NCBI GenBank assembly: GCA_949291555.1
Contig: CASEWE010000006.1
Coordinates: 1-64,000, forward strand
From: an uncultured Bacteroidales bacterium
GTDB taxonomy: Bacteria; Bacteroidota; Bacteroidia; Bacteroidales; P3
Reading direction: 5' to 3'
Length of the DNA: 64,000 nt
The notes under the pieces are model-generated. The model was not told where the DNA came from, ran no database searches, and saw only the letters and a list, made by a program, of their open reading frames with translations. A program made the position numbers and the translations under genes. This document shows, piece by piece, positions 43,790-51,684 of this stretch (positions are counted from its first letter, which is position 1; every line of letters starts with the position of its first letter).

Positions 43790-44752
43790 CTAACGGCGAA
43801 CCGCTTTCAACACGGCCGCGCCGTCTTCATTGTTCAAGCGGACCAAGTACACGCCTTGGGGCAAACGGGAAAGATCCAAGGCATAGGTTCCCTCCGCGGG
43901 ATAGCTGTACGAAGCCACCACCGCGCCCGAAAGCGACACCACTTCGGCCCGGCACGCTGCCGGTATCTGGATGTTGAACTGGCCGGTAGCGGAAGGATTC
44001 GGATAGATCCGGGAAGATTCCAGTTCCGCTGCCGGACCGTTGGAAGCCTGCCCGTAGACGAATTCCACATCGTCTACCCAGAGGGTGCTTCCCACCTGGC
44101 CCTGGCACGCGAACAAATTATCGAAATCATACCCGGCGCTCGAAACGAAAAGAACCGTTACCGAATCGGGAGTCTGCTGGCTGTTGTAGGGAATGGACAA
44201 GTTGAATTCCGTCCATCCGGGCACCGCTTCCTTGTATTTCTGTTCCACGCGGCCAATCACCAAGCGGCCGAAATCGGGATCGTAATGCGACAATTCCACG
44301 ATGATGCTGGCCGAATCCCCGTTGACAGGCTCGTACTTCATATACCCCTTGATAGCCGAAGGCCGGCTGGTGAACGGGCGGCCGAACTGGGCCGTCTGGT
44401 CGTCGATAATCACCGAAATGGCTCCTACCACGCCCGGCAGGAACAAATTGCTCCCGTCCTCGCCGAAAACCATGGTGTTCGAAACCAGCTTGGGCGCGTA
44501 ATCCTCGGCCGCGCCCGAACGTCCCCCGTCGCGGAACATGGTGACCGGAGCCGTGAACATTTCAGGCGGCAAGGTGGCCAGCATGTTCAACGACTGCCAG
44601 AACGGATTGCTCAATTCGTAGTAAGTGTCCCCGTTGTAGGCCTGGTTCTCGGTCCAGTAAGCGAATTGCCCGTCGGGGATCTGTTCTTCCTGAGCGAAGA
44701 GGCTGCCCGCGCACAAGGGCAAGGCGGCCAAAAGGAAAATCGTCTTTTTCAT
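43790..44752 (-). CDS. Secreted PCMD-like protein with T9SS sorting domain
   Basis: A 320-residue exported protein with signal peptide MKKTIFLLAALPLCAGSLFA. The body (IPDGQFAYWTENQAYNGDTYYELSNPFWQSLNML...STLWVDDVEFVYG) resembles the N-terminal domains of the two giant repeat proteins upstream in sequence order and is of the PCMD type. Residues about 245-320 are a type A T9SS domain: SRIYPNPSATGQFNIQI...LPQGVYLVRL...KAVRR. It follows the TonB-dependent receptor gene by 75 bases on the same strand, so the two may form a surface-capture and uptake unit. Confidence 0.82.
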   Translation of the reverse strand: MKKTIFLLAALPLCAGSLFAQEEQIPDGQFAYWTENQAYNGDTYYELSNPFWQSLNMLATLPPEMFTAPVTMFRDGGRSGAAEDYAPKLVSNTMVFGEDGSNLFLPGVVGAISVIIDDQTAQFGRPFTSRPSAIKGYMKYEPVNGDSASIIVELSHYDPDFGRLVIGRVEQKYKEAVPGWTEFNLSIPYNSQQTPDSVTVLFVSSAGYDFDNLFACQGQVGSTLWVDDVEFVYGQASNGPAAELESSRIYPNPSATGQFNIQIPAACRAEVVSLSGAVVASYSYPAEGTYALDLSRLPQGVYLVRLNNEDGAAVLKAVRR

Positions 44753-49125: not shown

Positions 49126-51684
49126 TTACTCCGTTTCTATCACGATCTGGTTATGCTCGCTATCGATCGTGTAACGGCCCGCACGCGAAAGCCCGTCCTT
49201 GTTGAGGATGATTTCCGCCGGGATTTCCTCGGCCGTCACCATTTCGATTCGCTCTATGTAAAAAGCCCCCAAACGGATTTCCTTCAACTGCAACCGCTGG
49301 TTGGGCAATACCTCGCCCTCGCTGTTGAAAGCCTTTTCCCGGTTCCGGAAACTGTTCTTGCCCAGATTCCCGGCCTGCAGCAAGCGCATGGCCGCATCGA
49401 TGCCGAGCAGATTGTACCGGGAACGCTCGTCAATTACCGCACGCATGCCCAACCCATTGGCAATCACCCGGATTTCAGGCTTGTCGTCAGGATTGAGGGT
49501 GAAAGGTATCTTGTTGGCGTTTTCCATGTCGGCCATGCCCACCAAGGCGCTCAGGCTCCGGTTCCCGGAAGGAATGAAGTCTTCGCGCAGCACGCTGAAT
49601 TCGGTGCGGCGGTTGAGCTGGTGGGCCGCTTCCTGCCAGTTGCGGTCCGGCAAGGTGTCGATGTAAGCATCGGTAAGCACCACCCCGGAATCGAACGCGT
49701 AAGGCACCCCGGCATAGACCGAAACCATGTCCTTGGTCAAAGTGCGCGGCTGGTGCGACCCGTAGCCCTTGGCCACCAGGCGTTCCCCGTCTATTCCCCG
49801 TTTGATAAGGTAATCGACCACGGCCTGAGCCCTGTATTGGGACAAGGAATCGTTGGTCATGGCGATCGGGCGCGAATCGGTATGGGAAGCCAGCTCGATG
49901 ACCAAGCGGGGGTTCTTCTCTAACATCACGATCAGATCCATCAGCGAATCCTGGTATTGCTCTTTCAAATCCCATTTGCCCAAATCGTACAGGATTTCGG
50001 GCAGCACCACCGGCCCGCGGGGAACCGGTTCCAAAACGAAATCATGCACAAAGTCCTGGCTCGCCACCAAGCCCACGGTAGTCTCCGAGCCTTCCGCCCC
50101 CAGATAATTCTTCTTCTCCACCAGAAGCTTGTAGGTGGTATTCTCGTTCACTTGCCCGGTGCCGAATTTGTAAAAGCCCTTGGAATTGGTCGTAGTGCTG
50201 ATCAGCATGCCGTCGCTGCCTGCCAGCGATACCTCGGCATCCGGCACCGGCTGCAGGGTGGCTTCGCTGGTGACCGTGCCGGAAATGGTGAAAAGGATGT
50301 CGGGAAGATAAAACGAATAAATGTCGTCGCTGCCCCGCCCGCCGCCGCGGTTGGAGCTGAAGAGCCCCTTGTTCTGCCCGGGAAGGAAACAGATGCCGAA
50401 GTCGTCGGCATTGGTATTGAGCGGATAGCCCAGATTCTCCACTTCCCGGAAAATGCCATCGCGCAAAGTGGCTTTGTAGATGTCGAACCCGCCCATGGAT
50501 CCATGGCCGGTGGAAGAAAAGTAAAACAACGTGTCGTTGCGCAAGTAAGGATAAGCCTCCTTGTATTCGGTATTGACGCAACCGGCCACCGCCGGCTTTT
50601 CCATCCGGCCTTCAATGTCTTCTTCCGTGTCGGTCTTTTCCCAATTCATGTTGACCGGGGTCCCGAACGTGCTCCCGCTCCCCTCTGCATACCAGATATC
50701 GAGATCGCCGTAGCCGCCAGCCATGTTCGAGGCGAAATACAAGCGCGACCCGTCTTCGGTAATGAACGGATGGATGAAGTCCGACACCGTGTCGGTTCCG
50801 ATGACCACATCGACCGGGTCGCTCCAAGCCTGCCCATCGAAAGTGGAGGTGCGGATGACGCAGCGGTTCCTCTTCTTGTCCTCGTTCCCGCAATAAGTGT
50901 AATACATCGTGGTGCCGTCATTGCAGAAAGAAGCATCGCTTTCATTCGACGAAGTGCTGGTCTTCCCGTTCTGATCCAATTTTTCAGGCTGGCTCCACGT
51001 GCCTTTGGCATCCTGCCTCGATACGAAAATATCGGAAAAGCGCTGCCCCGTCCAGGCATCGGTCTTCTTGCCCGTCACCCCTTCCCGGGTGGAAGAAAAA
51101 GCCACAATATTGCCCTCCGGCGTGTAATAGCGAGGATTCCAGTCGCCCGAATTCCCATTCAGCTTGCGCACGTTCTCTATCTGGTAGCGGGAAGCCTGGG
51201 ATGCAGCCTCCTTGGCCAGCAGGCTGGCCTTAAGCCCTTGTATTCCCGCGCTGTCATCGGGAATGTAGTCCAAATAAATCTCGAAATTGCGCGTGGCTTC
51301 CTCGAAATCACCCTCCCCCAGCTGAAGATTGGCCAGGTTGAAATAAATCTTCGGCTCCACTTTATAGTATCCGGCCCGGATGCAACGCTGGTATTGCCGC
51401 GCTGCCAGCCGTATCTGCCCGCTATAACGGTACGACTCGGCTATCTGGAAAAGAAGGCGGTTCTTCAAATCCGGGTCGTTCGTCTTCTTCCGCTTCCCCA
51501 GCTTGGCAAAAGCCTTCTGATACTGCGTTACGGCCACATCGTACATGTGGTAGCGGAAAGCCGTGTCCGCCTTTTTGATCTGGCGGGTCTGGGCTTCTAT
51601 CCCGCCCGGGATACACAATGCCAGCAGCAAGCAACCAAACCCGAAAATCTTCCGTACGTCCATACCGTTCTTGAATAATTCCAT
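49126..51684 (-). CDS. porE: T9SS protein PorE-like: TPR, beta-propeller, regulatory-like domain, OmpA C-terminal domain, degenerate retropepsin-like tail
   Basis: An 852-residue periplasmic or outer-membrane-associated protein. In order: signal peptide (start 51684 or 51663; the latter gives MDVRKIFGFGCLLLALCIPGG), TPR-like helices (residues 35-165), PD40/WD40-like propeller blades (SDASFCNDGTTMYYTY, DGSRLYFASNMAGGYGDLDIWYAE, RGSDDIYSFYLP), a carboxypeptidase regulatory-like domain, and an OmpA peptidoglycan-binding domain (ILYDLGKWDLKEQYQDSL...ASHTDSR...QYRAQAVVDYLIKRGI...NRRTEFSVL). This is the domain order of PorE (PG1058), a T9SS component. Residues 738-852 are extra and align with retropepsin-like domains. 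Confidence 0.82.
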   Translation of the reverse strand: MELFKNGMDVRKIFGFGCLLLALCIPGGIEAQTRQIKKADTAFRYHMYDVAVTQYQKAFAKLGKRKKTNDPDLKNRLLFQIAESYRYSGQIRLAARQYQRCIRAGYYKVEPKIYFNLANLQLGEGDFEEATRNFEIYLDYIPDDSAGIQGLKASLLAKEAASQASRYQIENVRKLNGNSGDWNPRYYTPEGNIVAFSSTREGVTGKKTDAWTGQRFSDIFVSRQDAKGTWSQPEKLDQNGKTSTSSNESDASFCNDGTTMYYTYCGNEDKKRNRCVIRTSTFDGQAWSDPVDVVIGTDTVSDFIHPFITEDGSRLYFASNMAGGYGDLDIWYAEGSGSTFGTPVNMNWEKTDTEEDIEGRMEKPAVAGCVNTEYKEAYPYLRNDTLFYFSSTGHGSMGGFDIYKATLRDGIFREVENLGYPLNTNADDFGICFLPGQNKGLFSSNRGGGRGSDDIYSFYLPDILFTISGTVTSEATLQPVPDAEVSLAGSDGMLISTTTNSKGFYKFGTGQVNENTTYKLLVEKKNYLGAEGSETTVGLVASQDFVHDFVLEPVPRGPVVLPEILYDLGKWDLKEQYQDSLMDLIVMLEKNPRLVIELASHTDSRPIAMTNDSLSQYRAQAVVDYLIKRGIDGERLVAKGYGSHQPRTLTKDMVSVYAGVPYAFDSGVVLTDAYIDTLPDRNWQEAAHQLNRRTEFSVLREDFIPSGNRSLSALVGMADMENANKIPFTLNPDDKPEIRVIANGLGMRAVIDERSRYNLLGIDAAMRLLQAGNLGKNSFRNREKAFNSEGEVLPNQRLQLKEIRLGAFYIERIEMVTAEEIPAEIILNKDGLSRAGRYTIDSEHNQIVIETE

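Follow-up and report, generated by a model that had tools for sequence, protein, structure and literature searches.

The last ~130 residues of a PorE-type protein encoded in the window (the whole stretch of 64,000 nucleotides analysed here, from an uncultured gut Bacteroidales bacterium) are almost certainly homologous to the clan AA retropepsin-like proteases of Bacteroidota, and by every sequence criterion this C-terminal domain appears to be an inactive protease fold, as the preliminary description of this DNA had proposed. A pseudo-retropepsin as the fifth domain of a type IX secretion system (T9SS) scaffold, widespread in Bacteroidales, is apparently undescribed in the open-access literature, in which our searches found no report of a retropepsin-like domain on PorE or of an inactive retropepsin in a bacterial secretion system, and no papers on retropepsins in Bacteroidetes. 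The use of dead enzymes as binding modules is a known theme. As the tail is present in about one third of the PorE-bearing Bacteroidales genomes sampled, the four-domain description of PorE based on Porphyromonas gingivalis misses a large part of the order. The contrast between tailed and tail-less PorE, together with the discrete and tethered nature of the domain, makes its function directly testable by truncation.

Domain organization of the PorE-type protein

The PorE-type protein (852 amino acids; 49126–51684, minus strand; identified by its open reading frame, NCBIfam and Pfam) comprises a signal peptide, a TPR region, a PD40 beta-propeller, a carboxypeptidase-regulatory-like domain (residues 466–551; 50032–50289, minus strand; Pfam PF13620, E = 8.8e-9), an OmpA-like domain (49732–49989, minus strand; Pfam PF00691, E = 2.7e-13), a linker and the degenerate retropepsin. 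The order TPR, propeller, carboxypeptidase-regulatory-like domain and OmpA-like domain, which typifies PorE, is thus present (Pfam; NF052230), and the top PDB sequence match of the OmpA-like domain is that of P. gingivalis PorE itself (6top, E = 6e-20). The T9SS_PorE model (NCBIfam NF052230) aligns end to end with residues 32–700 (E = 7.9e-154) at 513.4 bits, a score lower than the NCBI curated cut-off of 600 bits. Three other PorE-like proteins scanned in the window genome reach 312, 280 and 206 bits, far below 513, so that the window protein is the best PorE candidate of its genome.

The linker (residues 707–718; 49531–49566, minus strand) is predicted with low confidence (pLDDT <50) and is probably flexible. 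It again falls below 50 in a model of the OmpA-like domain plus tail, where the pTM of only 0.49 would be expected for two domains that are independent of each other and flexibly tethered. The catalytically degenerate retropepsin-like domain that follows (residues 723–852; 49129–49518, minus strand) is delimited by HMM, hhalign, AlphaFold and Foldseek.

P. gingivalis PorE is a lipoprotein of 672 amino acids with four described domains (PMC7192894). No lipobox is recognisable in the N-terminus of the window protein, and a simple lipobox pattern is absent in 94 of the 98 PorE-type proteins compared; with this near-universal lack, the PorE-type proteins of the order may for the most part be soluble in the periplasm, unlike that of P. 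gingivalis. Loss of the lipoprotein anchor was rejected as a correlate of the tail, as tailed and tail-less PorEs of the order are alike without a lipobox.

Retropepsin fold and homology of the tail

The tail had been placed at residues 738–852 (49129–49473) in the preliminary description, on the basis of four motifs which are all found in the protein (IRVIANGLGMRAVIDERSRY, NLLGIDAAMRLL, IRLGAFYIERIEMV and ILNKDGLSRAGRYTID). The domain is real, but it starts ~15 residues earlier, at residue 723 (window position 49518). The retropepsin-like fold suggested for it, to be checked by structure prediction and fold search, is borne out by AlphaFold, Foldseek, hhalign and HMM comparison, which all agree.

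An HMM built from intact DTG/DSG retropepsins of Bacteroidota, with no PorE tail included, matches residues 725–850 of the window protein with an E-value of 2.5e-13 (Z = 20,000); these proteases were gathered with the tail profile or PF13650 but count as members by virtue of their own D[TS]G. Alignment of 34 PorE tails with 21 DTG/DSG retropepsins by hhalign gives a probability of 99.92% over 125 columns, as against at most 1.3% (1.26%) for 40 column-shuffled profiles and 0.22% for the reversed profile, while three catalytically intact Bacteroidales retropepsins align with the tails at 99.75% (E = 2.7e-27, 127 columns). Pairwise BLAST of tails against DTG retropepsins reaches E = 2e-17 (database size 2e8). 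Moreover, the tails and the Bacteroidota retropepsins share an extra segment, GxIxxxDxxG, between the helix and the flap.

The window tail alone has no aspartic-protease match in Pfam or NCBIfam and no sequence match in the PDB; the link is visible only through its relatives, so that the preliminary description saw what family libraries do not recognise in this sequence. Among 22 tails from 41 related genomes, PF13975 is found in 12, PF13650 in 7 and TIGR02281 in 10, and among 34 diverse tails TIGR02281 (clan AA aspartic protease) is found in 20 and PF13975 in 19, with any other family in at most 2 members. These results would also correct automatic annotation, which labels the nearest relatives aspartyl proteases and scores some of the tails likewise.

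AlphaFold2 without templates predicts the retropepsin-like domain with a pLDDT of ~97–98. Foldseek against the PDB places APRc of Rickettsia in the first position (5c9f, E = 1.2e-6, probability 1.00), followed by the retroviral-protease domains of Ddi1, so that a single-lobe retropepsin fold is indicated by both the model (pLDDT ~97) and its matches (probability 1.00 to APRc and Ddi1). Other PDB matches below E = 0.001 include soybean 7S globulin, which has the aspartic-protease fold, and a putative endopeptidase of Bacteroides fragilis. TM-scores are 0.6–0.7 when normalised by the target and ~0.5 when normalised by the query, the latter because the query holds ~30 disordered residues. A viral library again returns retroviral and pararetroviral proteases and nothing more specific. 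At the level of sequence profiles, APRc in the PDB is reached with E = 0.28 by the A1 profile and weakly, with E = 0.0089, by the broader A2 profile.

Loss of the active site

A retropepsin-like aspartic protease carries a catalytic D-T/S-G and a hydrophobic-hydrophobic-Gly motif, and the window tail has neither. As aligned with DTG retropepsins, the catalytic position is occupied by D752-E753-R754 (GAC GAG CGT; 49423–49431, minus strand), where the aspartate is kept in register, the threonine or serine is replaced by E753 and the glycine by R754. The preliminary description had correctly recognised the retained aspartate and the lost glycine of the loop; the threonine or serine is lost as well, and so is the glycine of the second motif, where the alignment column places N828 (49201–49203, minus strand; ILG/LLG changed to ILN, residues 826–828). 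That glycine is present in all 22 non-PorE relatives, while the 132 distinct PorE tails have 76 G, 36 N and 14 D.

The preliminary description had also raised the matter of which homologues carry the tail and whether any keeps DTG or DSG: many PorE homologues are tailed, and an intact D[TS]G is found in none of the 132 distinct tails, as against 21 of the 22 non-PorE relatives retrieved with the same profile (DTG in 18, DSG in 3 and DTL in 1). The position of the aspartate is occupied by D in 77 of the 132 tails, including that of the window, and mainly by E, G, S or N in the other 55. The information in the D-T-G-A-S columns amounts to 3.7, 3.0, 3.0, 2.7 and 2.5 bits in the proteases versus 1.5, 1.1, 1.1, 0.7 and 0.8 bits in the PorE tails. 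The absence of the motif across 132 tails makes the catalytic loss a property of the whole tail family rather than an accident of the window genome, and judged by these motifs the tail is very probably without proteolytic activity.

Selection and conserved positions

In ten within-genus pairs with unsaturated synonymous change, the dN/dS of the tail is 0.04–0.15, about equal to that of the core, which indicates that the domain is kept by purifying selection and is not decaying. Fold columns conserved in both PorE tails and proteases are N743, F749, S761, D778, G790, G806, G836 and D841, and the N- and C-terminal strands, which form the dimer platform, also remain conserved in the tails. F779 is invariant in PorE tails, and Y838, F849 and I792 are more conserved there than in the proteases. 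The substitution pattern and the new conserved positions together point to selection for a different job rather than to decay.

Type IX secretion setting

The genome of the window encodes the PorP-family proteins and sorting-domain cargo expected beside a PorE, with four PorP-family proteins (TIGR03519) above the cut-off, 51 type A sorting domains (TIGR04183, E ≤ 0.001) and 5 type B sorting domains (TIGR04131). A PCMD-domain protein near the porE gene (43790–44752, minus strand) has a type A sorting domain (PF18962, E = 1.2e-9) and is a probable T9SS cargo. Irrespective of the PorE tail, type B sorting domains are present in 231 of the 247 genomes of the order, and they were rejected as a correlate of the tail, as near-universal domains give no co-occurrence signal.

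In P. gingivalis, PorE binds peptidoglycan via its OmpA-like domain (PMC7192894) and complexes with PorP of the outer membrane; PorP in turn binds PG1035, a type B cargo protein (PMC9143113). The published data for this species thus set PorE against PorP and peptidoglycan and not against C-terminal sorting domains (CTDs) directly (PMC9143113, PMC7192894).

Distribution and history

Of 247 genomes drawn evenly from the order of the window, 212 match PorE at E ≤ 1e-80. In 69 genomes, belonging to 36 of 120 families, a PorE-type gene ends in a match to the tail profile, which amounts to about one third of the PorE-bearing Bacteroidales sampled; the count of 69 was tallied by hand from two tables (PorE matches and tail-profile matches), with one such gene confirmed. 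Apart from the window itself, the tail profile finds no tailed PorE in 296 genomes across the phylum; most of its matches there are retropepsins that are free or fused in another way. The tail thus seems confined to the order Bacteroidales. Two of the 78 named loci are labelled Chlorobiota (L153 and L154); as one of the two falls within the clade of Bacteroidales tails, these labels may be wrong.

On a tree of 98 PorE cores, from which the tail was left out, tail presence requires 4 changes, as against 29.5 with shuffled labels. In a tree of the domain based on only 128 columns, PorE tails and proteases form the two sides of one branch with an SH-aLRT support of 100. A single acquisition of the tail, in one Bacteroidales lineage, is probable. 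One gain followed by a few losses fits this distribution, while several transfers may be compatible as well with 4 changes, as both trees are unrooted.

Two genomes of one family (f47) encode a second, fast-evolving PorE-type paralogue, also tailed, beside the main one (L196 and L211). A record titled Ruminococcus flavefaciens, a Firmicute (JAMPAI010000005.1; L083), contains the Bacteroidales PorE described here, with 69% identity in the tail, and is probably a mislabelled genome.

Other ends of PorE and other fused retropepsins

L222 and L250, two PorE-type proteins that lack the tail but lie close to the tailed clade, have a C-terminal SPOR-like segment instead (PF05036; E = 0.04 and 0.0012, neither reaching the gathering cut-off). 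The window genome itself encodes, on contig C7 (L258; 716–3814, plus strand), a PorE-like paralogue beside a PorP-like gene; the end of this paralogue looks SPOR-like by eye, though without a Pfam match. Other tail-less PorEs have proline- or charge-rich ends. The position behind the OmpA-like domain seems to be a slot where lineages attach different add-ons.

Retropepsins have also been joined to other proteins. A 319-residue frame in a genome of the same class (L160) encodes a different exported protein that begins with a second, independent degenerate retropepsin, in which DTLNY replaces DTGAS. In several Bacteroidota (L199, L202, L209, L033, L161 and L204), long proteins end in an intact DTG retropepsin of the same subfamily as the tail; by eye, the partner is a TPR protein in L033 and an FKBP/cyclophilin-type isomerase in L161.

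Possible role of the tail

The tail is probably a non-catalytic protein-interaction module of some kind, with dimerisation accounting for about half of that probability. On a flexible linker, the degenerate retropepsin would follow the OmpA-like domain that binds peptidoglycan, and there it is predicted either to pair with the tail of another PorE molecule through the platform of terminal strands or, about equally likely, to dock a periplasmic partner; pairing or docking would stabilise the PorE–PorP anchor of the T9SS. Retropepsins are obligate dimers, and the platform strands are still conserved, which is why pairing is predicted at all. The threonine or serine of D-T/S-G, however, also helps to hold the protease dimer (the fireman's grip), and its loss in the tails weakens the dimer reading. 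As P. gingivalis PorE works without a tail, the tail would be dispensable for the basic function. It is conceivable, though unlikely, that the groove of a dead retropepsin dimer grips a periplasmic T9SS peptide (a segment of PorP, PorK or cargo), so that PorE would both anchor the machine to the wall and gate or cluster translocons.

A narrower proposal, made in the preliminary description, is that the tail serves as a cargo receptor, with the dead groove binding the C-terminal sorting domains of T9SS substrates. It is suggested by the PorE-type nature of the protein, by the dozens of type A CTD proteins in the genome, one of them at 43790–44752, and by the conservation of the flap glycine and strand (G790 and I792), but the groove and loop positions are less conserved than a binding site would be, type B CTDs are near-universal in the order with or without a tail (231 of 247 genomes), and the P. 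gingivalis CTD protein PG1035 is bound by PorP, not PorE, without any tail; we therefore regard the receptor as quite improbable. Slightly less so, and still doubtful, is a second anchor to the wall or envelope, in which the tail would add affinity for peptidoglycan or a wall-bound protein beside the OmpA-like domain. The SPOR-like segments in the same place in L222 and L250 speak for it, as the slot seems to be used for wall-binding add-ons, whereas the SPOR matches are weak, one of the two proteins is a paralogue whose genome encodes a tailed PorE as well, and we know of no retropepsin fold that binds peptidoglycan.

Readings that keep the tail close to proteolysis fare worse. That it cleaves with a non-standard site is very unlikely: the aspartate that 77 of the 132 tails, that of the window among them, keep in register would allow it, yet the threonine or serine and the glycine are gone in all tails, the aspartate is replaced in the other 55, and no acid is newly invariant, the strongest PorE-specific column being a phenylalanine. 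Pairing with an active enzyme is a general mode of action of pseudoenzymes, and DTG relatives are present in some genomes of the order, so that the tail could in principle regulate an active retropepsin within mixed dimers; such a partnership is more unlikely still, as neither PF13650 nor, beyond this tail, the tail profile has a match in the window genome, and a protease of this subfamily accompanies the tailed PorE in only a handful of the 69 genomes. Finally, although the catalytic residues are gone, there is next to no chance that the tail is a decaying, functionless relic of a fused protease, given its dN/dS of 0.04–0.15, its open frame across 36 families and its PorE-specific conserved positions; the pairs tested already refute this reading by their pattern of substitutions. 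A non-catalytic module for protein interaction is thus the reading preferred here.

Comparison with known systems

The window protein shares with P. gingivalis PorE (NF052230; 6top) the order of TPR, beta-propeller, carboxypeptidase-regulatory-like and OmpA-like domains, but the latter ends after the OmpA-like domain, while the window protein adds the retropepsin domain and has no recognisable lipobox. With the Bacteroidota retropepsin-like proteases (TIGR02281, PF13975 and PF13650; e.g. L032, L158, L194 and L205) the tail shares full-length homology over ~127 columns; those proteases keep D[TS]G in 21 of 22 cases and are separate proteins or part of other fusions, whereas PorE tails never keep the motif.

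The closest solved fold is APRc (RC1339) of Rickettsia conorii (5c9b, 5c9d and 5c9f), described as a retropepsin-like protease (PMC4140852), which itself is active with DTG. The bacterial retropepsins RloA and RimB of Pseudomonas are likewise active DTG enzymes and are unfused to any secretion component, unlike the PorE tail; RloA proteins are exported and dimeric, with a non-interdigitated platform (PMC12239564). Comparable in fate are Bla g 2, described as an inactive aspartic protease (PMC9541408), and soybean basic 7S globulin, which have the clan AA fold, have lost catalysis and serve other uses; these two are free eukaryotic proteins of the two-lobed pepsin type, whereas the PorE tail is a single-lobe domain joined to a bacterial secretion scaffold.
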